The notes under the pieces: generated by a model
The model's database searches: none
What the model was told of the DNA's origin: nothing
The model's input: the letters and a program-made list of their open reading frames with translations, nothing else
Assembly: GCA_016786495.1 (NCBI GenBank)
Contig: JAEUUJ010000011.1
Span: 1 to 41,477, forward strand
DNA length: 41,477 nt
DNA from: Cyclobacteriaceae bacterium
GTDB taxonomy: Bacteria > Bacteroidota > Bacteroidia > Cytophagales > Cyclobacteriaceae
Direction of reading: 5' to 3'
Program-made: the position numbers and the translations under genes
Shown here: positions 27,941 to 41,477 of the stretch, piece by piece
Layout of the letters: each line of letters begins with the position of its first letter
Numbering within the stretch: the stretch's first letter is position 1

Positions 27941-28630
27941 GTGAAACAATACCTGTACCTGCTGCTGGATGTACTGACGATTCTGTTTCCGTTTCTCTTC
28001 AGCTTTTATCCAAAAGCAAATTTTTCGAAGAAGTGGAAATACCTGTGGATAGCAATTCTCATCCCGGGTATCATTTTTTTAGTGTGGGATGAAGCGTTTA
28101 CCCAACTGAATGTATGGGGCTTTAACCCGGAATATCTCAGCGGCATGTATCTGAACAGCCTCCCGCTGGAAGAAGTTTTATTCTTCATTTGCATACCGTA
28201 TGCGTGTGTGTTTACCTACGAGGCACTGAACTACCTGGTAGCAAAAGATTATGCAGCACCCTATCAAAGAAAAATTTCAGTGATACTGATAGCAGGCTCA
28301 ATCGTGATGGCGTTGCTCAATACCGATAAATGGTATACCGTTACCACGTTTGGCGGGTTAGCCGCGTACATCGCACTGCTGGAATTCGGAATTCGGGCAA
28401 ATTACCTAAGTCGCTTTTACTTCGCGTATATTTTTATCCTGGTTCCGTTCTTCATCGTGAACGGAATTCTTACCGGAAGTTTTATTGAAGGTGAAGTGGT
28501 GTGGTACAACAATGCCGAGAACCTCGGCATCAGAATGGGAACAATTCCCGTAGAAGACACCTTCTACGGGATGTTATTGTTGATTATGAATGTGTCGCTG
28601 TTCGAGTGGTTGCAACGCAGAAAGAATTAA
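27941..28630 (+). CDS. Fused two-domain lycopene cyclase (CrtYc-CrtYd type)
   Basis: The 229-residue membrane protein starts at GTG. It consists of two repeats of the lycopene-cyclase domain of about 110 residues. The first has FLVWDEAFTQLNVWGFNPEYLSG and LPLEEVLFFICIPY. The second has FIVNGILTGSFIEGEVVWYNN and IPVEDTFYGMLLL. In actinobacteria these halves are separate proteins (CrtYc, CrtYd) that act as a heterodimer; in Bacteroidota and archaea they are fused as here. It cyclises lycopene to beta-carotene. It is the last gene of the crt operon, and its stop codon overlaps that of the convergent lysine-rich gene. Confidence 0.9.
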   Translation: MKQYLYLLLDVLTILFPFLFSFYPKANFSKKWKYLWIAILIPGIIFLVWDEAFTQLNVWGFNPEYLSGMYLNSLPLEEVLFFICIPYACVFTYEALNYLVAKDYAAPYQRKISVILIAGSIVMALLNTDKWYTVTTFGGLAAYIALLEFGIRANYLSRFYFAYIFILVPFFIVNGILTGSFIEGEVVWYNNAENLGIRMGTIPVEDTFYGMLLLIMNVSLFEWLQRRKN

Positions 28631-29015: not shown

Positions 29016-31427
29016 CTACTCCTGACGAAGCGAATCCACCGGATTGGCCGCAGCAGCCTTAATCGACTGGTAAGAAACGGTAATCCAGGCGACCGAAATG
29101 GCCGCTATTCCACTGGCGATAAATATAACCGGACTAAGTTCAATGCGATACGCAAACCCGTTCAACCACCAGGTAACGACCCAATAAGCAAGTGCCGCAG
29201 CAGGCACGAACGCGATAATCACCAGCCGTGTAAACTCACGCGACAACAGCATTACCAGGCCGGCCGGAGAAGCGCCCATTGCCTTGCGGATGCCGATCTC
29301 CTTCGCGCGCTGCTCGGTAGTGAAGGCAGCGAGTGCAAATAACCCCAGGCTGGCGATAAAAATAGCAAGGCCTGAGAACACGCGGGCCAGTTGCCCGATG
29401 CGTTGTTCGGACCGGAACAACTCATCAAAATTCTGATCGAGGAACCCGTAGTCGAATGGTTCATTGGGTGCATACTGTTTCCACAACTTCTCGGTTGATG
29501 CAACCACCTCCTGCGTGTTGCCCTGATACCGCACCATCAGTTCCCACGAGTCGTTGGTTAACCGAATCGCCAGCGGACGCACTTTTGATTTCATCGATTC
29601 GAAATTAAAATCCTTGAATACACCGATCACTCTTAGCTTTTGCTTGGTGCTGTTATCGCTGTAAATTACTTCTTCCCGCAACGGGTCAGTATATCCAAAT
29701 TCCTTAACCGCTGCTTCGTTCAACAGGATGGCGCTTGAATCAGACGGGAAATCTTTTGAAAAGTAGCGCCCCTCCTTCATCTCGAACTTCATGACCGACT
29801 GGTGATCGTAATCGGCATAGTAAAGACCCATAATGTGATCCTGTTCAGAACCAACGGCCTTGAACACAGTTGTGTTATTGACACCGGGAAAGCTATTGTT
29901 CGTATAGCTTGACGCCACGATATCCGTCTGACTCTCGAGTGCGTTTTTAAACGCTGCCTTGTTGTCTCCCAGGCGTCCGGAACTGTGAATGAGCAGCACG
30001 TTGTGTTTGTCGATGCCCATGTTCCGGTCTTGCATGAAATTGAGCTGCTGGTATACAACCGCCGTGGCGATAATTAAAATAATGGAGATCATGAATTGCA
30101 GCACCACCAATCCGGAACGTATTCCTTTGCTCTTCATGCCTGACCGAACCTTTCCTTTCAGTACTTCGACAGCATTAAAGGAAGTCAGGTAGAATGCCGG
30201 GTAACTGCCGGCCACAATTCCTACCAGCAGAATCATACCGATTAGCGCCAGCAAAAATGCTTTGCTGGTTAGTGCTTCCATTCCGAGTTGCTTGCCCGCC
30301 AGCAAATTGAAATACGGTAACAGCAGGTAACACAATCCCACGGCCAGCAAAACAGCAATCAGACTGTAGATTAATGACTCAGCCATGAACTGAACGATCA
30401 TCTGACTGCGCAACGAGCCAAGTGTTTTACGCAAACCCACCTCTTTCGCGCGTCCGGCCGAACGGGCGGTACTCAGGTTCATGAAGTTGATGCAGGCGAT
30501 GATAATAATGAACCCGCCAATGGCAGCAAACACGTACACGTACGCGATGTTACCGCCCGGCTCCAGATCATTTTGCGATTTCGATCTCAGGTGAATGTCG
30601 GTGACCGGAGTCAAATAATATCCAAAATCACCACCCTGCTGTTTCATCTGCTCCAGTGTGCCGCCCATGAACCGTTCGATCTCCGGACCCACGTATTTAC
30701 CGGTTAATTCAGCAAACTTGCTCTCCACCGCTGACACCGGTGTTTTCTCGTTGATCATCAGGTAGGTGTGAAGATAATTGCTCAGCCACTCGTTGGACTT
30801 TAAATGCTCGCCCGATGAAGATGACACGAGCATGTTGTACAGAAAATGTGAATTCGCAGGACAGTCTTCGGAGATGCCCGTTACCTTAAATGTTTTTTCC
30901 TGTCCACCGATCGACAACAACTTGCCCATCCCCGACTCGTTCCCAAAATACTTTATCTCCATGCTCCGTGTGAGCACAACTGAATTCGGCTCCAGCAGTA
31001 CCTTTTCCGGATCGCCCTGGATGAGTTTGAAACTGAAAAACGTAAAGAAATTGGAATCGGCATAAAAGAGTTTTTGCTCCGTGAACATGAGATCTTTCGG
31101 CTCATACTTGACAACGCCTGAACCCCATACCTCCGCAAGACGGGTTGCCTGCTCCACGCCCGGAATCTCCCGCACGAAAGCCTCGGCCATCGGCGGACAC
31201 GTGGTTGATGTCATGATATCCTGGCCACCCAGTCGGGCGTGTAAGCCCACCTGATAAATTTTATCCGCCTGCGCATGGAACCGGTCGTAACTCAACTCCT
31301 GCGTTACATACAGCGCGATGAACAAGCAGGCTGTTACCCCGATCGTCATCCCGAGGATGTTGATCAAAGAGAAAAACTTGTACTTTAAAATGTTTCGGAA
31401 TGCGACTTTGAGGTAATTCTTAAACAT
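29016..31427 (-). CDS. ABC transporter permease, MacB/FtsX type (third of three)
   Basis: The 803-residue inner-membrane protein has eight predicted helices in two halves. Each half is a MacB-like periplasmic domain plus FtsX domain. The N-terminus MFKNYLKVAFRNILKYKFFSLINI holds the first helix. The cytoplasmic coupling motifs are AKEVGLRKTLGSLRSQMIVQF in half one and AKEIGIRKAMGASPAGLVMLL in half two. This duplicated form of about 800 residues is typical of Bacteroidota and works with a separate ATPase. The substrate is unknown; MacB relatives export peptides or toxins or transmit mechanical work across the envelope. It is about 60 bases after the previous permease and ends at a strong terminator. 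Confidence 0.88.
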   Translation of the reverse strand: MFKNYLKVAFRNILKYKFFSLINILGMTIGVTACLFIALYVTQELSYDRFHAQADKIYQVGLHARLGGQDIMTSTTCPPMAEAFVREIPGVEQATRLAEVWGSGVVKYEPKDLMFTEQKLFYADSNFFTFFSFKLIQGDPEKVLLEPNSVVLTRSMEIKYFGNESGMGKLLSIGGQEKTFKVTGISEDCPANSHFLYNMLVSSSSGEHLKSNEWLSNYLHTYLMINEKTPVSAVESKFAELTGKYVGPEIERFMGGTLEQMKQQGGDFGYYLTPVTDIHLRSKSQNDLEPGGNIAYVYVFAAIGGFIIIIACINFMNLSTARSAGRAKEVGLRKTLGSLRSQMIVQFMAESLIYSLIAVLLAVGLCYLLLPYFNLLAGKQLGMEALTSKAFLLALIGMILLVGIVAGSYPAFYLTSFNAVEVLKGKVRSGMKSKGIRSGLVVLQFMISIILIIATAVVYQQLNFMQDRNMGIDKHNVLLIHSSGRLGDNKAAFKNALESQTDIVASSYTNNSFPGVNNTTVFKAVGSEQDHIMGLYYADYDHQSVMKFEMKEGRYFSKDFPSDSSAILLNEAAVKEFGYTDPLREEVIYSDNSTKQKLRVIGVFKDFNFESMKSKVRPLAIRLTNDSWELMVRYQGNTQEVVASTEKLWKQYAPNEPFDYGFLDQNFDELFRSEQRIGQLARVFSGLAIFIASLGLFALAAFTTEQRAKEIGIRKAMGASPAGLVMLLSREFTRLVIIAFVPAAALAYWVVTWWLNGFAYRIELSPVIFIASGIAAISVAWITVSYQSIKAAAANPVDSLRQE

Positions 31428-31484: not shown

Positions 31485-33911
31485 TCACTCCTCTTTTAAG
31501 TTTTCAACCGGATTCAGGTACATAGCCTGTAACGTCTGCGATCCGATGGTAATCACCCCTAAAACAACCAGAATGAATACACCCAGTCCGATGGTGAATA
31601 TATCAACCGTAACGTGTAACACGAAGTTTTCAAGCCACAGTGTATTGAGGAAGTATGCAGCCGGAACAGCCAGTGCGATGGCGACAACCAACAGCGTAAG
31701 ATAGCCTTTGGAAAGAATCATCACGAGTGATTGATTTGAGCTTCCAAGAATTTTTCGTACCGCAATTTCCTTCCTGCGCGTTTGAATGGTGTAGGTGGCC
31801 ATGCCCAGCAGTCCGAGACAGGAGATGATGATCGCGAGGGTCGAAATGAAGCCCAGTACCTTCACCATGGTGCCAAACACAATCTCATACAACACGCCCA
31901 TCTCTGCCCTGAACTCCTTTACATCGGCCTTTAAACCCGGGTTGATGGTTGCCCACGCTTTCTCTACCGACTTCCGGGCCTGATGCAGGTCACCGGCATA
32001 GGAGATTTGCAACAGCGAAAATTCGTCAGGCCGGTAAAGAAATCCCAAAGGATTGAGTTTGTCTGTAAACAACTCGTGGTAGTAATCTTTCACGACACCC
32101 ACAATAACTTTCTCACTGGAATCATATTTCAATACCAGGTGCTGACCAATCGCTTCAGCAGGTGTACCGAGTTGATAAGCGCGTACAGCCTCCTCATTGA
32201 GGACAATAAAATTTGAGTTTGAACTGCCGGCTTCTTTCTTAAAAAACTCTCCCGCAACCAGGGTCAGGCCCATGTTATCAACGTAATCTTCATCCACCGC
32301 AAAATACGACAGGTTACTCCACGTATCCGTTCCCGGCTTCTGCATGTCCGTTCCGCGAACCATGCCCGCCATGGGAATATGAGAAGCGGCCGATACACTG
32401 ACAACGTTAGGCTGACGTTCAAGCTCCTGCTTCAGCACATCCAACCGGGTATTGCCTTTATGAATAAGCACTTTGTTTTCAACCACAAATCCGTTGTCGT
32501 TGTGCAGGAATAAATTCAGTTGATTGTAGAGAACGATTACGGTAAGAATAAAGATCAGCGACAGTGAAAACTGCACCACCAGCAATACTTTTCGCAATCC
32601 TACTTTCGACATCAGTTTTGAATCGCCAATGTTCTTAAGAACCTTAATCGGCTGAAAACCCGATAATACCCCGGCCGGAAACAAACCGGCAATAATCCCC
32701 ACGGCAACAGCAAAGACGAGAAACGCTCCGTATACCACATAATTGGCCGACAGATTCCAACGCATGATGCGCACGAACGCCAGGTCAACAATAAAGGGTT
32801 TAATCATATAAATCAGCACAAGTGCAAGCACGAGCGCAAACAATGCAATCACTACCGACTCGCTCAAAAACTGCACAAATAATTGCCAGCGAACCGCACC
32901 GGTCACTTTACGAACACCAATTTCTTTCGCCCGGGTTAGCGAACGCGCAATGGATAAGTTCGTAAAATTGAAACAGGATGTTATCAGGATCACGCCTGCA
33001 ATGAAGGCAAGAAAATAGATAAGGTACCACGGCATGAAGGGACCAATGGGATTGTTCAAGAGCGGGCCGGGCACGATGTCGAGCAGGTTCTGAAGCGAAT
33101 ACCGGAAGATATCGCCTTCCTGCGATTTACGTTTTACAAAATGATCGTCAGTAATTTTTCCAAGCGTTGCCTGAACATCGACAGGCGAAGTTCCTTCTGA
33201 CAACTGCACATACACCCAGCCACCATGGGCATAATCCCAATTATCGATGTTGGATGTCATGATGCCCGCTTTTTCCAGACTGGGAACAGTCGACATGCTC
33301 GCAAACGCTTCCACAACAATGTGCGAACGTTTATCGGTTTTTTTGATAACGCCCGTCACGGTATACACACCCAGGTTACCGACCTTCAGGGTTTCACCTA
33401 CAGGGTTTTCCTTTTCGAAGAGTTTTTCTGCCGCCTGCTTCGTTAAAACCACCGAGTAGGGTTCAACAAGGGCCGTCTTCATGTCGCCATACTGCAGTTG
33501 GTAGTCGAACATCTCCAGCGCCTCTGCGTCTGCGAAGTATCCGCTTACCGGGATGTTGACATCATAGTTGGGCTCAAGTTCAAGCCACATATTTCCGAAG
33601 CCCCGCATGAAGCGCACGGCCTTTTCCACGCCTGTATATTTCGTTAAAAGCTCATCGCGGAGAGGAAGTGTCGTGGAAGCAGTTTCGCTTCCCGGCTGAC
33701 CGTTATTGTCTTTCCAGTACGGCACGGTGTTGATGCGGTAAATGCGGTCGGCCTTTGGGTTGTCGCGATCGACCATCATCTGATCGGCCACCATCATCAT
33801 AATGGCCATACAAACGCACATGGCTACCGCGAGACCAAAGATGTTGATGAAGGAGAATGTCCGGTGCTTAACGATATTCCGGAGTGCGACTTTAAGGTAG
33901 TTTCTGAACAT
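31485..33911 (-). CDS. ABC transporter permease, MacB/FtsX type (second of three)
   Basis: The product is 808 residues from the ATG at 33911 (MFRNYLKVALRNIVKHRTFSFINI, aligned with the start of its paralogue). An upstream ATG at 33956 would add 15 non-conserved residues. The architecture is the duplicated MacB-periplasmic plus FtsX layout, with coupling motifs AKEIGVRKVTGAVRWQLFVQF and RKEIAVRKILGSSNQSLVMIL. The periplasmic parts differ strongly from the other two permeases, so the three are not recent copies. No promoter-like signal is evident in the gap before it, so it is probably read through from the first permease. Confidence 0.87.
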   Translation of the reverse strand: MFRNYLKVALRNIVKHRTFSFINIFGLAVAMCVCMAIMMMVADQMMVDRDNPKADRIYRINTVPYWKDNNGQPGSETASTTLPLRDELLTKYTGVEKAVRFMRGFGNMWLELEPNYDVNIPVSGYFADAEALEMFDYQLQYGDMKTALVEPYSVVLTKQAAEKLFEKENPVGETLKVGNLGVYTVTGVIKKTDKRSHIVVEAFASMSTVPSLEKAGIMTSNIDNWDYAHGGWVYVQLSEGTSPVDVQATLGKITDDHFVKRKSQEGDIFRYSLQNLLDIVPGPLLNNPIGPFMPWYLIYFLAFIAGVILITSCFNFTNLSIARSLTRAKEIGVRKVTGAVRWQLFVQFLSESVVIALFALVLALVLIYMIKPFIVDLAFVRIMRWNLSANYVVYGAFLVFAVAVGIIAGLFPAGVLSGFQPIKVLKNIGDSKLMSKVGLRKVLLVVQFSLSLIFILTVIVLYNQLNLFLHNDNGFVVENKVLIHKGNTRLDVLKQELERQPNVVSVSAASHIPMAGMVRGTDMQKPGTDTWSNLSYFAVDEDYVDNMGLTLVAGEFFKKEAGSSNSNFIVLNEEAVRAYQLGTPAEAIGQHLVLKYDSSEKVIVGVVKDYYHELFTDKLNPLGFLYRPDEFSLLQISYAGDLHQARKSVEKAWATINPGLKADVKEFRAEMGVLYEIVFGTMVKVLGFISTLAIIISCLGLLGMATYTIQTRRKEIAVRKILGSSNQSLVMILSKGYLTLLVVAIALAVPAAYFLNTLWLENFVLHVTVDIFTIGLGVFILVVLGVITIGSQTLQAMYLNPVENLKEE

Positions 33912-34025
33912 AGCGATAACGAGGTTAGTGTCCGGCCTTAGCCGGATTGCGATCATCCAACAAAAGATTAGGTAATTTCCTGTTAGACGCCTCCCCTTAG
34001 TAATCGGTTACAGCAATCGACAACA

Positions 34026-36404
34026 TTATTCGCTCCGCAAAACATCAACCGGATTCATCTTTGCGGTGCTATAGGTTTTAAACGCGACAGTAAAAACACA
34101 GGCTACCACCAACAGCACGCATGATACCACAGCAGTGGTAATGGTAGGTGCCTGATAGTGATCAAAGATCGCACCCATCAAGATATCCGATATCCACATC
34201 CCCGCGTAGCTTCCAATCACAAGCGCAATCAACAGCAACACGATAAACTGACTGTTGATGATGCGGGAAAGATTTGCGACAGATGCGCCCAGGACTTTCC
34301 GTACACCGATTTCCTTCATCCGCTTGATGATGTTGAGTGAAACCAGCGTAAACAGGCCCGTGATGGACAACAGTAACGCCACGCCCCCTTCAAAAACGAA
34401 CATCACCAGGATATTCTTATTAACCTGATTAGCCTCTACCGCACCTGCATTCATAAAGCGCGCAGAATACATCCGGTTCGGGAAAACCTCTTTCCATTTT
34501 TTCTCCATGAATGAATTCACGTTCTGCACGTTTTCAGGCGAAGTATTCACGATGGCATAATTCACCCGTTCCGGATCCGCATACCGCAGCATCATCGGCT
34601 CAAGCGGTTCCCAAATACTGTAAATATCCCGGGCCACCCCTACCACATACAACTTCACGGTATCCATCCAGACAATTTCCTTTCCGATCGGTTTATCCCA
34701 ACCGAATTTGCGTACAAGTTCCTGTGTAACAATAACAGACTCCCTGCGATCAGTTTCCGAATCTTTGATAAAGTCACGTCCCTCAACCAATGTCATGCCT
34801 ACCGTTTTCATATAGTCGTCTCCAACATCCATGATGTTCGCTTCGAGCTCCTGACTTTCATGTTTAACAGGGTCATTGTAATAGTTCGAGTAGATATGAT
34901 TGGGCGATCCCGTAATGGATTTGATGTCGGGGTTACCCGCCAGTGCGTTGCGGTAAGCTTCGTATTCTGCCCGGGAGTCGACAAACGTAAAAATCACACC
35001 ATCTTTATTAAAGCCCATGTCAAAGTCGCGTTGAAACCGGGCGTTGCCTACAAATGCCGCCGAACACACAATGGCCGCCAACGAAAGCGCGAGTTGCACG
35101 CCTAAAAAAACATAGGTAGCAACTCCATTACCTCCAAATTGTTGTTTGCCTTTCAGCACAACTGCCGGATGAAACTTGCTTACGTAGAATGCCGGATAAC
35201 TGCCCGCTACAACACCTGCAAAAATCAGCACGCTCAACATCACAATCAGGAACTCAGGCTTTTCCAGGTACTGCGCTTCGAGTTTCATGTAAGGCCACAG
35301 TTTGTTGAACGCAGGAAGGAGGAAACTATCAGCCAGCACAATGCCCAACAGCAGCGCGATGAAGCAGATCACCAGTGTTTCTCCGATGTATTGCACAATA
35401 AGTTGTCTGCGCATACTGCCCATCACCTTCCGGATACCGATTTCTTTCAATCGCTTGGATGACAATGCGATCGATGTATTGGTGAGGTTAAAGCACGCGA
35501 TTAACAACATGATAACGCCCATAACCGCACAGCCAATAACAGCCGACAAAGGCGATGCATGACGGGTGATTACTCCCGGCCGGTGCGCAACTTCATCGCG
35601 AACGGCCATGCCTTTCAGTTGATCAAGCTGGAATTCACGGATTATAAAATCTTCGCGCACGTTGTTATTATTTGCAATGTACGGCTGAAGCTGGCTGGTA
35701 ACCGTTGCTACACGTTGCGGATTAGAAATGTAAACAAAAAGTGCATTGCGCTCTTTCCAGTTCGCTCCGTTTTCAAATACGGGTGATACATCCCAGTAGT
35801 TATCGTACAAGGCAAAAAGATCCTCATCGAAGCTCGAATTCCGTTTGGCAAGCTTATAGACACCTACAATTTCATACTCTTTTTTTACGTCACCATGAAC
35901 CAGGTTGGTAACTGCCTTGCCAATGGGATTCTCGTTGCCGAAGTACCGTGTAGCCAACTGATCGCTGATCACAATCTTGCTTTTGTCGGTTATGGCGGCA
36001 GCGCTGCCGCGCACAAACTCGAACGAAAACATCTTGAAAAAGTCCGGATCAATATACGCGCAATTGGTACCGAACATTTCGTCACCAATACGGATGTTCA
36101 TTCCGCCCCCGCTTACCCGTGTGAACATCTCCACATCCTTGATATTTTGCCGGACCATCTCTCCGAGCGGAAGTGGAACCAATCCGTACGCAGTCGATTT
36201 ACCCTGGTATTCACGGACGGAGTTAACCCTGTAAATGGATTCGGCATTCACATGCACCTTGTCGAACGAATTATTGAAATCAAAATTGAAATAACCGACT
36301 ACACAACATCCGATGGCAATAGCAAGCCCCGCGATGTTGATGAATACAAACAGGCGGTTTTTATTCAGGTTTCTGAACAGGATGAGAAGGTGGTTTTTTA
36401 ACAT
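34026..36404 (-). CDS. ABC transporter permease, MacB/FtsX type (first of three)
   Basis: The 792-residue product begins MLKNHLLILFRNLNKNRLFVFINIAG. It has the same two-half layout, with LKEIGIRKVMGSMRRQLIVQY and MKEIGVRKVLGASVANLSRII as coupling motifs. It is the promoter-proximal permease gene. The 194 bases upstream hold, in order toward the gene, the ATPase operon terminator, a tandem GTTC-N6-GAAC array and a sigma-54-like element. It therefore probably has its own regulated promoter, although the ATPase and adaptor it needs are encoded just upstream. The substrate is unknown. Confidence 0.88.
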   Translation of the reverse strand: MLKNHLLILFRNLNKNRLFVFINIAGLAIAIGCCVVGYFNFDFNNSFDKVHVNAESIYRVNSVREYQGKSTAYGLVPLPLGEMVRQNIKDVEMFTRVSGGGMNIRIGDEMFGTNCAYIDPDFFKMFSFEFVRGSAAAITDKSKIVISDQLATRYFGNENPIGKAVTNLVHGDVKKEYEIVGVYKLAKRNSSFDEDLFALYDNYWDVSPVFENGANWKERNALFVYISNPQRVATVTSQLQPYIANNNNVREDFIIREFQLDQLKGMAVRDEVAHRPGVITRHASPLSAVIGCAVMGVIMLLIACFNLTNTSIALSSKRLKEIGIRKVMGSMRRQLIVQYIGETLVICFIALLLGIVLADSFLLPAFNKLWPYMKLEAQYLEKPEFLIVMLSVLIFAGVVAGSYPAFYVSKFHPAVVLKGKQQFGGNGVATYVFLGVQLALSLAAIVCSAAFVGNARFQRDFDMGFNKDGVIFTFVDSRAEYEAYRNALAGNPDIKSITGSPNHIYSNYYNDPVKHESQELEANIMDVGDDYMKTVGMTLVEGRDFIKDSETDRRESVIVTQELVRKFGWDKPIGKEIVWMDTVKLYVVGVARDIYSIWEPLEPMMLRYADPERVNYAIVNTSPENVQNVNSFMEKKWKEVFPNRMYSARFMNAGAVEANQVNKNILVMFVFEGGVALLLSITGLFTLVSLNIIKRMKEIGVRKVLGASVANLSRIINSQFIVLLLIALVIGSYAGMWISDILMGAIFDHYQAPTITTAVVSCVLLVVACVFTVAFKTYSTAKMNPVDVLRSE

Positions 36405-36433: not shown

Positions 36434-36449
36434 GTCAAACAGGATGCCA
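36434..36449 (-). promoter_or_regulatory. Sigma-54-like -24/-12 element before the first permease
   Basis: Read on the minus strand: TGGCAT-CCTGT-TTGA. The -24 half (TGGCAT) and spacing fit TGGCAY-N5-TTGC; the -12 half has GA instead of GC. It lies about 30 bases before the start codon. It is weak alone but is supported by the dyad array 63 bases upstream. Confidence 0.4.
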
Positions 36450-36501
36450 ACCGAAAAACCGCAAATTCAATCCGTATTCATCACATTTCAGGCGTCAGAT
36501 T

Positions 36502-36535
36502 GTTCGGATATGAACGATGGTGTTCGCCCCGGAAC
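36502..36535. promoter_or_regulatory. Tandem GTTC-N6-GAAC dyads (candidate activator sites)
   Basis: GTTC (36502), GAAC (36512), GTTC (36522) and GAAC (36532) alternate with exact 10-base periodicity. They form two dyads 20 bases apart, centred about 65-95 bases upstream of the expected transcription start. A matching array precedes the adaptor operon. This is the expected geometry of NtrC-type upstream activating sites. Confidence 0.6.
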
Positions 36536-36545
36536 TGTTATACAA

Positions 36546-36574
36546 TAAAAAACCCTGACGGTACGCGCCAGGGT
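36546..36574 (-). terminator. Intrinsic terminator of the adaptor-ATPase genes
   Basis: On the minus strand ACCCTG...CAGGGT forms a hairpin followed by TTTTTT. It is 25 bases after the ATPase stop codon and just ahead of the permease regulatory region. Confidence 0.85.
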
Positions 36575-36598
36575 CGTTACTAAACTGTAAACTGATTC

Positions 36599-37288
36599 TT
36601 AGATATGGAACTGCTCCTTGATGTTCTCCGTAACCACCTTTCCGTCGAACAGGTTAACAATGCGGTGTGCATAGTTGGCATCGTACGGTGAGTGTGTTAC
36701 CATGATGATGGTTGTTCCCTCCTCGTTCAACTGCGAAAGAAGCTTCATTACTTCTTCACCGTTTGCAGAGTCAAGGTTACCAGTCGGTTCATCGGCCAGG
36801 ATCACTCTAGGCTTTGCAACAATCGCCCGTGAAATCGCCACGCGCTGCTGCTGACCACCCGAAAGCTGCTGCGGGAAGTGATTTCTGCGGTGCATGATAT
36901 TCATGCGCTCCAGAACCTCCTCTACACGCTGCTTTCTTTCAGAAGCCGGCACTTTCATATACAGCAACGGCAATTCAACGTTTTCGAATACCGTCAATTC
37001 ATCAATCAGGTTGAAGCTCTGGAACACGAATCCGATAGAGCCTTTACGAAGTTGTGCACGCTGACGCTCGGAATATTTGGCAACTTCGTGCTCACCAAAG
37101 TGATATTCACCGCCTGATGGGTTGTCCAACAGACCGAGAATGTTCAATAGCGTTGACTTACCGCAACCTGAAGGTCCCATGATGGCTACAAACTCGCCTT
37201 CTTTGATTTCCAGGTTTATATTATTCAGCGCGGTAGTTTCTACTTCTTCAGTAGTGTAAACTTTCTCAAGATTCTTAAGTTTGATCAT
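36599..37288 (-). CDS. ABC transporter ATPase, MacB/LolD type
   Basis: The 229-residue cytoplasmic ATPase has Walker A GPSGCGKS (38-45), Q-loop [18 protein letters not shown], signature LSGGQQQR (142-149), Walker B VILADE (163-168) followed by PTGNLDS, and H-loop His199. The LTV-ENVELPL segment and the DEPTGNLDS stretch are typical of the MacB/LolD/FtsE class that drives FtsX-like permeases. It is the only ATPase in the cluster and probably serves all three permeases. It lies 100 bases after the adaptor gene and is followed by a strong terminator. Confidence 0.93.
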
Positions 37289-37388
37289 GGCTGGTTTATT
37301 TACAAGTTAGATAGTGGATGCTTATTTAGGGTGATTGGTTGTATGATACCTGAACAATTTATACTTCTTTTTCCAGAAAAAGTTACAA

Positions 37389-38642
37389 TTACTTTAAAAT
37401 CAACACCTCGTTGTTGCCAAAATTCTCGTAGGATGAGGTAATTACCTGATCTCCCGGCTTCAATCCTTCAAGCACTTCAAAGTTTTCGGTGTTCTTTCTA
37501 CCGAGTTTGACGTTACGTTTCACTGCTTTGTTACTGCCTTCTTCCAAAACAAATACCCAGTTACCGCCTGTATCCTTATAAAAGCCACCCACAGCAAGCA
37601 ATAATTCTTCTGACGACTGGCCCAATTCGATGCGCAGGCGCAGCGACTGACCTCTGCGAATTCCGGGGGGCGTTTCGCCTACGAAGTTCATATCAACCGC
37701 AAAGCGTCCGCCCGCAGCTACATCCGGATAGATGTAGGTGATCGATAACACGTAATCCTTATTGTTGTATGTGGTGGTCGCTTTCAATCCGGTTTGAATG
37801 CGGGGCAGGTAAATCTCATCGATTTCCACCCGAACCTTGAAACTGCCCAGGATATCGATCTGGCCCAAACGCTGGCCCGTGTTTACGTTTTGACCAACAT
37901 CCAGTTGCGGTCTGGCAAGCTGGCCGTCAATTGGCGCGCGAATAACGAGGTTATCCAAAATCTTCGACAACCCGTTCAAACTGGCCATCATTTTCTGTTC
38001 CGATTCAGATGTAAACCGTAACTGACGGATCCGGTCAACAGAGTCGGCCCGATAAACCTCATAGGTAATCTGCATCCGTTTCTTATTGAATTCGTAGTTC
38101 GCTTTCGTTTGCTCGTACTCCTGCTTAGAGATCAGGTTCTTTTCAAAAAGTTGCTTCTGACGAAGGTATTGAGGCTCCAGAATATCGAGTTGGTTTTGAA
38201 TGGTCGCCAGGGTTTGGCGTTGTTCAAGGTCATTTCGCATGATGTTCAGGCGAGTTTCGCGTGCACGGTTGATACTTTCGTTGAACGAAGCTTCCTGCTG
38301 CAACACAGTAAGTTCCCGGTTGAGGTTGTTCAACTCGAGAATCACATCACCTTTCTTCAGCATGGCACCGCTTTCTGCAACAACACGCTTAATTGTGCCG
38401 CCCTCTACCGCGTCCAGATACACCGTGCGGCTTGGTTCAACGGTTCCGGTTTGGGGAATGTAATCCTGAAAGATGCCGCGTCCCACCGTAGCGATCGTTA
38501 CTTTATCTTTTTCAATCACCAGGGTTGAGCGTCTGTCACCTAACAAAAACTGGTAAGCGATAAATAATACAAAAGCTGCGATACCGCCATAGAGCGCGAT
38601 ACGCTTTAACGTCCATTTTTTCTTTTTGAGTTGCTTATCCAT
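37389..38642 (-). CDS. Periplasmic adaptor (MacA/HlyD family)
   Basis: The 417-residue product has an N-terminal membrane anchor (RIALYGGIAAFVLFIAYQFLLG) and a lipoyl/biotinyl-like half (VEGGTIKRVVAESGAMLKKGDVILELNN). A long coiled-coil hairpin (about residues 110-220, ending in NLVIRAPIDGQLA) and a beta-barrel with membrane-proximal domains (GGNWVFVLEEGSNKAVKRNVKLG) follow. Adaptors of this family link an inner-membrane ABC pump to an outer-membrane channel; no TolC-like gene is in the window. Its upstream region carries a sigma-54-like element and tandem dyads, and it diverges from the sigma-54 activator gene. Confidence 0.9.
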   Translation of the reverse strand: MDKQLKKKKWTLKRIALYGGIAAFVLFIAYQFLLGDRRSTLVIEKDKVTIATVGRGIFQDYIPQTGTVEPSRTVYLDAVEGGTIKRVVAESGAMLKKGDVILELNNLNRELTVLQQEASFNESINRARETRLNIMRNDLEQRQTLATIQNQLDILEPQYLRQKQLFEKNLISKQEYEQTKANYEFNKKRMQITYEVYRADSVDRIRQLRFTSESEQKMMASLNGLSKILDNLVIRAPIDGQLARPQLDVGQNVNTGQRLGQIDILGSFKVRVEIDEIYLPRIQTGLKATTTYNNKDYVLSITYIYPDVAAGGRFAVDMNFVGETPPGIRRGQSLRLRIELGQSSEELLLAVGGFYKDTGGNWVFVLEEGSNKAVKRNVKLGRKNTENFEVLEGLKPGDQVITSSYENFGNNEVLILK

Positions 38643-38696
38643 TCTGTTTGTCTAAGTATCCGGGTGATTCTTTCGTTTGCGAATCGTCCGGATGTT

Positions 38697-38712
38697 GCCA
38701 ACAAGTGTGCCA
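38697..38712 (-). promoter_or_regulatory. Sigma-54-like -24/-12 element before the adaptor gene
   Basis: Read on the minus strand: TGGCAC-ACTTG-TTGG, then C. The -24 half is a perfect TGGCAC and the spacing is right; the -12 half has GG where GC is usual. It lies about 55 bases before the adaptor start codon. A dyad array lies 65 bases further upstream. Confidence 0.45.
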
Positions 38713-38753
38713 AGTGGGTTTATAGTCGCTTTGGTGCCTTTTCGGCAGCAAAT

Positions 38754-38818
38754 CGGCCGGATTCACGTTCAGATGTGAACGTAAATGTTCGTTACCGGAC
38801 ACGGCCGGACGCACGTTT
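38754..38818. repeat. Imperfect 17-bp direct repeat pair
   Basis: CGGCCGGATTCACGTTC (38754-38770) and CGGCCGGACGCACGTTT (38802-38818) agree at 14 of 17 positions and lie 48 bases apart. They bracket and partly overlap the GTTC-N6-GAAC array in the divergent adaptor/regulator region. Confidence 0.45.
38765..38800. promoter_or_regulatory. Tandem dyads (candidate NtrC-type activator sites)
   Basis: ACGTTCA-GATG-TGAACGT (38765-38782) is a perfect 7-bp dyad. Its GTTC (38767) and GAAC (38777) are followed at 10-base steps by GTTC (38787) and GGAC (38797). The array aligns without gaps to the one before the first permease over 15 bases, GTTCrGATrTGAACG, then N4-TGTTCG. It lies between the divergent adaptor operon and the sigma-54 activator gene. 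Confidence 0.65.
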
Positions 38819-38906: not shown

Positions 38907-40286
38907 ATGGAACAAAAACACGGTAAAATTCTGATTGTTGATGATAACGAAGACTTGCTGAAGGCAGCAAAGATGTTCCTGAAACGCCACTTCTCTCAGG
39001 TCGACATTGAGAAGAACCCGGAGGCTATTCCGGCTCTCATGAGCAACGAGGATTACGATGTTATCCTGCTCGACATGAACTTCACCAAAGATGTGAGCAG
39101 CGGAAGCGAGGGCTACTACTGGCTGGAGAAAATTCTTCAACTCGATCCTTCATCGGTAGTCGTGTTAATCACTGCGTATGGCGATGTTCAAATGGCAGTA
39201 AAGGCGATAAAAGCCGGAGCTACCGACTTTGTTTTAAAGCCTTGGGAAAACGAGAAGCTGTTGGCAACCTTATTCTCCGCGATGCGCTTGCGTGAATCGC
39301 GTGATGAAGTGCAAAACCTGAAGATAAAAAACCATGAGATCAACCAGGCGCTGAACGACAGGTTCAGTGAAATCATCGGCCAAAGCACAGCCATGCAAAA
39401 GATCTTTCAAACGATCGATCGCGTGGCAAAAACGGATGCCAATGTGTTAATCCTGGGCGAAAATGGTACGGGTAAAGAGTTAATCGCCCGAGCCATACAC
39501 CGCAATTCATCGCGCAAGGCAGAAAACTTCATCAGTGTCGATTTAGGCTCTATTACCGAAACACTCTTTGAAAGCGAACTGTTCGGACATAAAAAAGGCG
39601 CATTCACCGATGCCAAAGAAGACCGTGCGGGACGCTTTGAATTATCGAATGGCGGAACACTCTTCCTGGATGAGATCGGAAACCTTTCGATGCCCTTGCA
39701 GGCTAAGCTGCTCACCGTGTTACAAAGCCGGAAAGTAAGCCGCGTGGGCGCGAACAAAGATACCCCGATTGACATCCGGCTGATCTGCGCCACCAACATG
39801 CCGCTATACGACATGGTGAAAGAGAACCGGTTCCGTCAGGATTTGTTGTATCGCATCAACACCATTGAGGTTGAGATACCCGCGCTCCGCGACCGGCTCG
39901 AAGATATTCCGTTACTGGCGTCACATTTCCTGAAACACTATGCAGTGAAATACGACAAGTCGGTAAACAAAATCAGTGAGGGTGCCATGACCCGCATGCA
40001 CAAGCACCCGTGGCCGGGAAACATCCGCGAGTTGCAGCACGCGATTGAACGTGCCGTAATCCTGAGCAACACCAGCGTACTTCAACCGGAAGATTTCAAC
40101 TTCGCCCCGGTTACACAACGCGAAGACGGACAACTCAACCTCGACCAATACAACCTCGAGGAAGTGGAGAAACTCCTCATCCGCAAGGTGTTAAAGAAGT
40201 ACAATGGCAATATCACGCAGGCAGCTTCCGAGCTTGGCCTGACGCGGTCTTCGCTTTACCGCAGACTTGAAAAATACGGTCTGTAA
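38907..40286 (+). CDS. NtrC-family sigma-54-dependent response regulator
   Basis: The 459-residue product has three domains. The receiver (1-120) has acidic DDNED, phospho-acceptor Asp56, Thr89 and Lys111. The AAA+ domain (about 153-385) has Walker A GENGTGKE (184-191), the sigma-54 contact loop GAFTDA (231-236) and Walker B GGTLFLDEIG. The C-terminal Fis-type helix-turn-helix is NITQAASELGLTRSSLYRRLEKYGL. The loop reads GAFTDA rather than the canonical GAFTGA; the core GAFT is intact. It should hydrolyse ATP to open sigma-54 promoters when phosphorylated, most likely by the kinase encoded 84 bases downstream. It probably targets the divergent efflux genes. Confidence 0.93.
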   Translation: MEQKHGKILIVDDNEDLLKAAKMFLKRHFSQVDIEKNPEAIPALMSNEDYDVILLDMNFTKDVSSGSEGYYWLEKILQLDPSSVVVLITAYGDVQMAVKAIKAGATDFVLKPWENEKLLATLFSAMRLRESRDEVQNLKIKNHEINQALNDRFSEIIGQSTAMQKIFQTIDRVAKTDANVLILGENGTGKELIARAIHRNSSRKAENFISVDLGSITETLFESELFGHKKGAFTDAKEDRAGRFELSNGGTLFLDEIGNLSMPLQAKLLTVLQSRKVSRVGANKDTPIDIRLICATNMPLYDMVKENRFRQDLLYRINTIEVEIPALRDRLEDIPLLASHFLKHYAVKYDKSVNKISEGAMTRMHKHPWPGNIRELQHAIERAVILSNTSVLQPEDFNFAPVTQREDGQLNLDQYNLEEVEKLLIRKVLKKYNGNITQAASELGLTRSSLYRRLEKYGL

Positions 40287-40370: not shown

Positions 40371-41477
40371 ATGCTTAAAGACTTCCGGTCGCGGGTAATT
40401 CTGCGCACAATTTTCCTGGCAATTTCCCTGTCGCTTGCGGTCTACATGATCGGCAAGACCAATATGCTGTTTGCCGCCATTCTGATGTGCGTGATCATTG
40501 TTTTTCAGATTGCCGAACTGTTTCATTTCGTAAGCCTTACTAACCGCAAACTCACCCGCTTTCTGGAATCGGTTAAGTATTCCGATTTCGTTTCAGGATT
40601 TACGGCCGACAACAAGCTGGGCAAAAGCTTCAAGGAACTGAACATCTCATTCAACGAAGTACTGGAGGCCTTCCGAAAGGCGCGTTCGGAAAAGGAAGAA
40701 CACTGGCAATACCTGAATACTGTAGTACAACAGGTTCGCACCGGGATTTTATCGTTCGATACAGACGGTACCGTTCAGTTGATCAACATGAATGCGCGCA
40801 AATTTCTGAATATCCAGAATATCAAGAACATCCACGAACTGAAGGAACGCAACTACAAGCTGCATCATATCCTAACAACCACCGAACCGGGCAAGAGTTC
40901 GCTGTATAAAGATGCTAACGAATTTCATTTAACCATTCAGGCTACGGAACTGCGCATTCGCGGAGCGGATGTCAAGCTGCTCACACTCCAGAACATTCAA
41001 CCGGAATTACAGAAGCAGGAACTGGAAGCCTGGCAGAACCTTACCCGGGTGCTCCGGCATGAGATCATGAATTCGATCACGCCTATCTCTTCACTGACGT
41101 CAACCCTCAAAGACATTCTCGATTACGACCTCACGCAAAAGGGAGATCATTTCGAACTGAAAGCAGAAGGCGCTGACGATTTGAAAGAGGGGTTGAATAC
41201 CATCGAGAACCGAAGTAAAGGCCTGATTAAATTTATTGACGCCTACCGGGAATACACCTCACTGCCCAATCCGAAGCTTAAAACGATCCGGTTAAAAAGT
41301 CTGATCGAAAAGGTCGCCATGCTGATGCGCCAGGAAATGAAAAATTACCGGGTCGATTTTCACTACGAATGCCATTCCGAATACCTGACCATTCAGGCAG
41401 ATGAAGAGATGATTGAACAGGTATTAATCAACTTGCTGAAGAATTCAGCAGAAGCAGTGGCGCAGGTTGAGAATCCC
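40371..41477 (+). CDS. Sensor histidine kinase, N-terminal part (cut by window end)
   Basis: The reading frame from the ATG at 40371 is open to the window edge (369 codons). Two membrane helices lie near residues 10-50 (TIFLAISLSLAVYMIG, MLFAAILMCVIIVFQI) with almost no loop between them, so there is no large periplasmic sensor. A PAS-like domain follows (WQYLNTVVQQVRTGILSFDTDG, INMNARKFLNI), then the H-box VLRHEIMNSITPISSL (His230). The start of the ATPase domain has the N-box QVLINLLKNSAEAV. The H-box form HEIMNSITPI is like NtrB-type kinases. It follows the NtrC-type regulator and is its likely partner. The catalytic G-boxes lie beyond the window. Confidence 0.9.
   Translation, partial: MLKDFRSRVILRTIFLAISLSLAVYMIGKTNMLFAAILMCVIIVFQIAELFHFVSLTNRKLTRFLESVKYSDFVSGFTADNKLGKSFKELNISFNEVLEAFRKARSEKEEHWQYLNTVVQQVRTGILSFDTDGTVQLINMNARKFLNIQNIKNIHELKERNYKLHHILTTTEPGKSSLYKDANEFHLTIQATELRIRGADVKLLTLQNIQPELQKQELEAWQNLTRVLRHEIMNSITPISSLTSTLKDILDYDLTQKGDHFELKAEGADDLKEGLNTIENRSKGLIKFIDAYREYTSLPNPKLKTIRLKSLIEKVAMLMRQEMKNYRVDFHYECHSEYLTIQADEEMIEQVLINLLKNSAEAVAQVENP

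Follow-up and report, generated by a model that had tools for sequence, protein, structure and literature searches.

Tandem dyads and sigma-54-type elements upstream of MacB-like exporter genes in a Cyclobacteriaceae bacterium point to a regulon of an NtrC-family activator

The window analysed here, a stretch of 41,477 nucleotides, is one contig (C53) of the 4.0-Mb genome G000 of a Cyclobacteriaceae bacterium, and carries genes for a periplasmic adaptor, an ATP-binding cassette (ABC) ATPase and three MacB/FtsX-type permeases, together with a divergently encoded NtrC-type activator and a putative histidine kinase. Two promoter regions of this cluster, one upstream of the adaptor gene and the other upstream of the first permease gene, contain a tandem array of dyads followed by an element of the form TGGCAY-N5-TTG. 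As far as the sequence can tell, it is very likely that these arrays are upstream activating sequences for an activator of the NtrC family, that a sigma-54 promoter lies below each of them, and that the exporters are switched on through this arrangement. An earlier note on this DNA had proposed a compact regulon of kinase, activator, adaptor-ATPase operon and permease operon. Its interpretation appears to be largely right, supported and widened by the present analysis; the word compact has to be given up, as further permeases, an unlinked activator-kinase pair and, elsewhere, PspC and DUF4407 genes carry the element. To our knowledge, few of the switches for MacB/FtsX-type permease genes have been described. 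Such permeases are strongly multiplied in this genome, where the MacB_PCD domain has 76 matches (up to two per gene), and a defined operator, promoter and activator make the regulon directly testable.

Each array consists of two 14-bp palindromes of the form GTYC-N6-GRAC, the centres of which are 20 bp apart, with 6 bases between the palindromes. On the transcribed (-) strand, the permease array reads GTTC-N6-GAAC-N6-GTTC-N6-GAAC and the adaptor array GTCC-N6-GAAC-N6-GTTC-N6-GAAC; the half-sites start at positions 36502, 36512, 36522 and 36532 in the former and at 38767, 38777, 38787 and 38797 in the latter, i.e. in exact 10-base steps. The tandem GTTC/GAAC half-sites noted earlier are therefore present in both arrays, except that the last adaptor half-site is GGAC, not GAAC. 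The element said to lie downstream of both arrays was found as TGGCAC-N5-TTG in the adaptor promoter (38712-38699) and as TGGCAT-N5-TTG in the permease promoter (36449-36436), both on the (-) strand. From the last GAAC to the first base of TGGCAY, the gap is 54 bases in the adaptor promoter and 52 in the permease promoter; of the distances of 63 and 65 bases reported before, the 2-base difference stands, and the absolute values hinge on which dyad centre and which -24 half are chosen. The dyad centres are located ~87 and ~107 bp above the predicted start, and the -24/-12 element precedes the ATG by 56 bases (adaptor) or 31 bases (permease). Outside these elements, the two promoters are no more alike than unrelated DNA, with 7 to 17 of 52 bases identical, depending on the offset, between the dyad and the -24 element, and 6 of 31 below the -12 element.

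It is the combination of the elements, and not any single one of them, that counts. The three-half-site pattern has three exact matches in the window, all within the two arrays, and eight matches when up to 2 mismatches are allowed, compared with 3.9 expected (8 of 100 shuffles reach this number); TGGCAYN5TTG alone, with one mismatch, occurs 23 times in the window against 23.6 expected, and is not above chance. The composite GTTCN6GAACN{40,70}TGGCAN6TTG, by comparison, occurs twice in the 4.0-Mb genome, both times in the window, and its reversed control gave 0. When GTTCN6GAACN{42,70}TGGCAYN5TTG was searched for in 59 relatives, it was found at 40 places in 26 genomes (control, 2), and in 245 genomes of the family the same search found 145 places, spread over 99 genomes and 40 of the 84 genera sampled (reversed control, 7). 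Although the gap was free to take 29 values from 42 to 70, these 145 sites, which, being from related genomes, are not independent of one another, fall into a few classes: 42 (4 sites, at the edge of the allowed range), 51-56 (104 sites) and 61-66 (32 sites). The remaining five have gaps of 48, 49, 68 and, in two cases, 70; the values 43-47 and 57-60 do not occur. The estimate of the periodicity peaks at 11-12 bases, not at 10.5, in a range of 29 values that is too short to discriminate between them. As the preferred gaps differ by ~11 bases, sites on one face of the helix seem to be accepted, which is expected of an activator that reaches the polymerase by looping.

Orthologous regions keep this anatomy; loss of the dyads there had been named beforehand as the outcome that would speak against the proposal. 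In 78 adaptor promoters, taken from loci with an activator at least 66% identical to the adjacent one, TGGCAYN5TTGG is present in 75, and of the 51 non-redundant ones (differing by >20%), 45 carry a proximal dyad in which 7 or more of the 8 key bases match; in 44 of these, it stands 53-55 bases above the -24 element. The alignment of these 45 promoters, in all of which the gap is 52-55, displays two palindromes 20 bp apart, YGTYCG-N4-CGRAC and CGTTCA-N4-TGAACG, with little information in the bases between and beside them. The rows were picked by a dyad score of at least 7/8, so the conservation of the proximal half-sites is partly a result of selection; the distal palindrome is as sharp as the proximal one, though it was unused in the choice of the rows. 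In one scan by gene class, the composite was found upstream of 51 of 59 adaptor genes and 18 of 55 first permease genes after the ATPase, compared with none of 61 ATPase genes, none of 60 later permease genes and none of the 81 genes for the adjacent-type activator itself (a class that was not made non-redundant); shuffled sequences gave 0.00-0.05. Because the control classes are empty, the second promoter, that of the permease, is judged from these counts to be real, but was found in only part of the relatives. Furthermore, the two promoters are conserved separately, and in one relative (G007), where the permease operon lies ~26 kb from the activator, it has retained its own array and promoter.

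The presence of the composite also follows that of the activator. Within the family, it was found in 24 of the 28 genomes that have the adjacent-type activator and in 2 of the 9 that lack it (Fisher p = 0.0009, from counts tallied by hand and uncorrected for kinship), and in one of the latter two (G025) the site lies inside a gene.

The genes behind the composite are mostly exporter genes. The first long open reading frame (ORF) at most 420 bases downstream was recorded for 141 of the 155 distinct sites obtained by pooling the searches of the 59 relatives and the 245 genomes: 49 are adaptors, 41 MacB-like permeases, 9 PspC proteins and 4 DUF4407 proteins (Pfam on six examples). The nine PspC sites (L192, L195, L270, L277, L296, L297, L299-L301) come from four other genera, five of them from a single one; seven lie within ~50 bases of the gene and two (L270 and L277) ~300 bases off. 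They link the exporters with envelope stress of the PspC type in more than one genus, and the common layout suggests one switch for a shared stress response. The DUF4407 membrane proteins stand behind the same element at L187, L191, L260 and L303. Moreover, among 30 permease-domain loci of the own genome, three further unlinked MacB-like permeases carry a composite just above their start, with 0 such cases in 10 shuffled sets. One of these (L051, contig C35) is strong, with both dyads matching 8/8, a gap of 52 and the element TGGCATTGGCCTTG; the others (L055 on C79 and L056 on C4) are weaker, having a proximal dyad of 8/8, a distal one of 5/8 and one mismatch in -24/-12. Two other dyad matches in this genome do not extend the list: C79:50136 was dropped, as it lies inside a permease gene, and C38:29055 (L001) has no relative of a window protein nearby and no composite on scanning. 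As a separate observation, short proteins with one N-terminal hydrophobic stretch stand behind the element at L190, L245, L262, L273, L275, L400, L401 and L408-L410, with gaps of 56 or 62-66.

The adjacent activator has Response_reg, Sigma54_activat and HTH_8 domains, all above the Pfam cut-off, and is encoded divergently from the adaptor array as the sole sigma-54 activator in the window, as had been stated earlier. The genome encodes a single rpoN, with the ARRTVAKYR box, and Sigma54_activat has eight further full-strength matches in it plus a fragment at a contig end. One sigma-54 activator seems to be split across two contig ends, that of L027 (C62) and that of L031 (C1). One further activator belongs to an unlinked paralogous pair on contig C57, the activator of which is 65% and the kinase 35% identical to those of the window. 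The recognition helices of the two activators, LTRSSLYRR in the adjacent one and LTRASLYRR in the paralogue, differ by one residue. The truncated kinase of the window has no Pfam match, and all NCBIfam kinase models score below their cut-offs, so its identity as a putative kinase rests on these matches and on its conserved position. Of 82 group-1 kinase loci, counted with duplicates, 78 show by hydropathy a pair of hydrophobic segments that follow each other nearly without a loop, which is the arrangement of intramembrane-sensing kinases.

Several observations weigh against this reading of the arrays as activator sites of exporter promoters. The -24/-12 match is absent in 3 of the 78 adaptor promoters, and no clear dyad stands at the expected place in 6 of the 51 non-redundant ones; with the strict cut, just 18 of 55 loci show the permease promoter; and the strict composite is absent from four activator-bearing genomes (G012, G017, G029 and G036), in the first of which the contig starts at that point. 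At 38 of the 141 sites, none of the four gene classes follows: one precedes a gene for an activator-like protein, 35 precede unmatched genes and two have no ORF behind them. Among the unmatched genes are those for a PadR regulator, a DUF2807 protein, a DUF4440 protein, a membrane protein of the YccF type and short proteins that are either secreted or in the membrane. In addition, 8 of the first 125 sites fall inside an open frame of at least 150 codons. Membership of PspC and DUF4407 genes in the regulon of the own genome is unsupported, since its PspC loci carry no composite and it has no DUF4407. Finally, the motif that contacts sigma-54 is GAFTDA, not GAFTGA: G[AS][FY]TDA (GAFTDA, GSFTDA or GAYTDA) replaces GAFTGA in all 162 family activator loci examined (145 distinct sequences), and seven other sigma-54 activators examined in the own genome have GAFTGA, GSFTGA or GSFTSA. 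This variant does not exclude sigma-54. According to the available part of PMC3162934, FlgR naturally carries D at the same position of the motif, and the part of PMC2941729 available to us reports that NorR with the same exchange, G266D, forms open complexes, still needs its enhancers and escapes repression by the sensor domain. GAFTDA is thus compatible with sigma-54, because FlgR has this residue and NorR G266D stays active.

As for the activator that binds the arrays, it is unlikely, but worth consideration, that the dyads are run mainly by the unlinked C57 paralogue, the adjacent activator having another or an accessory role. The paralogue's own gene is preceded by the same kind of dyad and TGGCAY element, GTTC-N6-GAAC-N6-GTAC plus TGGCAC-N5-TTC (L026, 1097-1190, with the dyad at 1097-1110), and of 50 non-redundant relatives with an identity of 60-66%, 26 show this combination (shuffled mean 0). 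One genome (G004) has kept the adaptor cluster with both promoters and has no adjacent activator in the stretch examined, the paralogue being the only such activator found in that genome (E<=1e-130). Against this possibility, the composite tracks the adjacent-type activator across genomes, as described above, and the gap classes differ: in the 26 paralogue promoters the gap is 53 in three, 62-63 in 18, 66 in one and 72-76 in four, compared with 52-55 in every aligned adaptor promoter. Since the recognition helices are nearly identical, both activators could bind; the adjacent one is the probable binder, not an exclusive one.

Less probable still is that the dyads bind an unrelated dimeric regulator, e.g. 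a repressor, and that the sigma-54-like element is a look-alike. The chance-level frequency of TGGCAYN5TTG alone in the window and the departure of GAFTDA from the usual contact motif would fit this idea; it is opposed by the helical phase that the two elements keep over the 145 sites and by several other permease-adjacent activator subfamilies, which have their own kind of dyad at this position. Chance similarity, or the recent duplication of one promoter, in favour of which nothing was found, has a negligible probability in view of the flanking identities given above and of the separate conservation of each promoter, and the pattern, as these sequence comparisons indicate, is neither chance nor artefact. 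Repeats of a terminator or mobile element were likewise rejected, given that both arrays stand immediately upstream of genes, at a constant distance from a promoter element, and that 40 of the 84 genera sampled have the composite.

If the arrays are indeed activating sites of an NtrC-family protein, the phosphorylated activator would bind the two dyads as a pair of dimers, two helical turns apart, and would then assemble into a hexamer and open the sigma-54 polymerase waiting at TGGCAY-N5-TTG about five turns downstream. The anatomy of the promoters, their conservation, the phasing along the helix and the genes behind them are observed; binding, RpoN dependence and phosphorylation, as well as the signal and the exported substrate, are matters we infer. 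The adjacent activator would be the likeliest binder, and the paralogue on C57 probably binds like sites and drives its own gene. The kinase, having two membrane helices and hardly any loop outside, probably responds to changes in the membrane or in the permeases. Activation would lead to the production of the adaptor-ATPase-permease exporter and of further MacB-like permeases, to which PspC and DUF4407 membrane proteins may be added in some other genomes.

Parts of this arrangement are known from other systems. It shares with the NtrC family (type Ia enhancer-binding proteins) the order receiver-AAA+-HTH_8, tandem dyads, a -24/-12 element and a neighbouring kinase; it differs in that the targets are MacB-like exporters, the motif is GAFTDA throughout the members examined, the spacing falls into helical classes and the kinase has no evident outside sensor domain. 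The BceRS-BceAB modules of Bacillota combine a two-helix, almost loop-free kinase with a neighbouring FtsX-type permease system and an OmpR-type regulator. The kinase type (by hydropathy, at the loci counted above) and the FtsX-type neighbour are found here as well, whereas the regulator is of the NtrC type with sigma-54, not of the OmpR type, and the exporter has a periplasmic adaptor. In the enterobacterial PspF/phage-shock system, pspC is under the control of sigma-54; a sigma-54-type element likewise precedes PspC genes in four other genera of the present family, but the regulator here is a two-component response regulator, and the PspC of the own genome is not under the element. As for the exporter itself, the best-scoring NCBIfam models are DarC for the adaptor and DarD for the ATPase, and DarB and MacB match the permeases weakly. 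All scores are below the cut-offs, separate genes encode ATPase and permease, and the permeases number three. An identity with MacAB was therefore rejected (MacB, 25-36 bits for the permeases against a cut-off of 966; MacA, 32 against 342; ATPase unfused), and so was one with the darobactin exporter DarBCD (DarD, 291.5 against 375; DarC, 203.9 against 450; DarB, 79-129 against 700).

The presence of sigma-54 promoters before such permeases is already in print as a prediction. A 2025 computational survey, in the part available to us, reports predicted sigma-54 promoters to be enriched before COG0577 permeases in Bacteroidia, and styles this the first evidence (PMC12316311). These COG0577 permeases (FtsX-like, antimicrobial-peptide ABC permeases) agree with ours in promoter type, permease class and phylum; the available text gives no activator, operator or kinase for them, and 'macb' and 'pspc' occur 0 times in its main text. 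The main text of PMC3162934, as available, has no word beginning with bacteroid, macb, permease, efflux, cytophag or abc transport. In our searches of open-access literature, we found no report of this activator, of the tandem dyads or operator, of the regulon, of the phasing, of the second activator or of a PspC link in this phylum.

The paralogous activators with their different dyads form a natural series for the question of how Fis-type helices choose DNA. Activators with the helix TRSS or TRAS go with the dyad GTYC-N6-GRAC, and in other permease-adjacent subfamilies, at roughly the same position, TRTA goes with GTATCG-N4-CGATAC, TRPA with GTAACG-N4-CGTTAC, TRAT with K with TGTTTAA-N3-TTAAACA, and SRGA with GTGCCCAT..ATGGGCAC; apart from TRSS and TRAS, each pairing comes from one or two cases. 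There is close agreement between the helix classes and the activator tree, the bootstrap of which is unsettled. A search for GTATCG-N4-CGATAC gave five sites, one of which was the training case; three of the four new ones are beside an activator, in all cases TRTALYRR, and the fourth has no activator in the stretch examined. Because these activators form one clade, the agreement reflects kinship and not independent origin. GTAACG-N4-CGTTAC has 0 sites in the 245 family genomes, both of its training cases being from other families. A simple code is contradicted by L144, whose helix is SRQA and whose dyad, GTCCG..CGGAC, is like that of TRSS activators; by L153 and L154 (ITRTA), which have the hybrid dyads GTATCG..CGGAC and GTATCG..CGAAC; by L138 (TRTA), whose dyad is imperfect; and by L139, L146, L147, L149 and L152, which yielded no -24/-12 element in the direction of the divergent gene. 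The correspondence of helix and dyad is a lead, then, and not yet a code. On a wider view, the Cytophagales may possess a family of intramembrane-sensing kinase/GAFTDA activator pairs, many of them for MacB/FtsX-type permeases, in which each subfamily would read its own dyad by a legible code, the whole forming a sigma-54 envelope-stress network that joins the roles of the Bce module and of Psp. The exceptions and the kin-only agreement lower the probability of this wider view, which we regard with marginally more doubt than confidence. At L138, L140-L145, L150, L151 and L392-L394, further activator subfamilies beside MacB-like permeases have differing tandem dyads, which often, though not always, match the helix and whose repeats, on counting by eye, are 22-23 and not 20 bases apart.

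The named relatives with an activator 84-99% identical are mostly Cytophagales, including Chryseolinea, Ohtaekwangia, Dawidia and many 'Cyclobacteriaceae' and 'Flammeovirgaceae' assemblies. Among cultured relatives, the cluster is also present in Chryseolinea serpens DSM 24574 (L318) and Ohtaekwangia koreensis DSM 25262 (L308). In the window, the adaptor, the ABC ATPase and the three permeases are all encoded on the minus strand, and the activator and the kinase are divergent from them.

Table 1. Positions of the promoter elements and genes of the exporter cluster in the window
Feature	Position	Strand	Basis or remark
Distal 14-bp dyad GTCCGGTAACGAAC, adaptor promoter	38787..38800	(-)	conserved as YGTYCG-N4-CGRAC in 45 aligned non-redundant promoters
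Proximal 14-bp dyad GTTCACATCTGAAC, adaptor promoter	38767..38780	(-)	half-site columns 1.4-2.0 bits in 45 promoters, partly through selection of the rows
Sigma-54-type -24/-12 element TGGCACACTTGTTG, adaptor promoter, 54 bases past proximal dyad	38699..38712	(-)	
Distal dyad GTTCCGGGGCGAAC, permease promoter	36522..36535	(-)	
Proximal dyad GTTCATATCCGAAC, permease promoter	36502..36515	(-)	
Sigma-54-type element TGGCATCCTGTTTG, permease promoter, 52 bases past proximal dyad	36436..36449	(-)	
Periplasmic adaptor (membrane fusion protein), first gene behind the 38.7-kb promoter	37389..38642	(-)	Pfam and NCBIfam
ABC ATPase	36599..37288	(-)	Pfam and NCBIfam
MacB_PCD/FtsX permease, first gene behind the 36.4-kb promoter	34026..36404	(-)	Pfam and NCBIfam
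Second MacB_PCD/FtsX permease, probably in the same operon as the first	31485..33956	(-)	Pfam
Third MacB_PCD/FtsX permease, probably in the same operon as the first	29016..31427	(-)	Pfam
NtrC-type activator: receiver, Sigma54_activat (GAFTDA at residues 231-236), HTH_8, recognition helix LTRSSLYRR	38907..40286	(+)	Pfam
Putative histidine kinase, truncated by the contig end, two N-terminal hydrophobic helices, almost loop-free	40371..41477	(+)	NCBIfam below cut-off, and hydropathy

Beyond the third permease gene, positions 27941-28630 of the window encode a membrane protein of 229 amino acids, which we take to resemble a lycopene cyclase domain.

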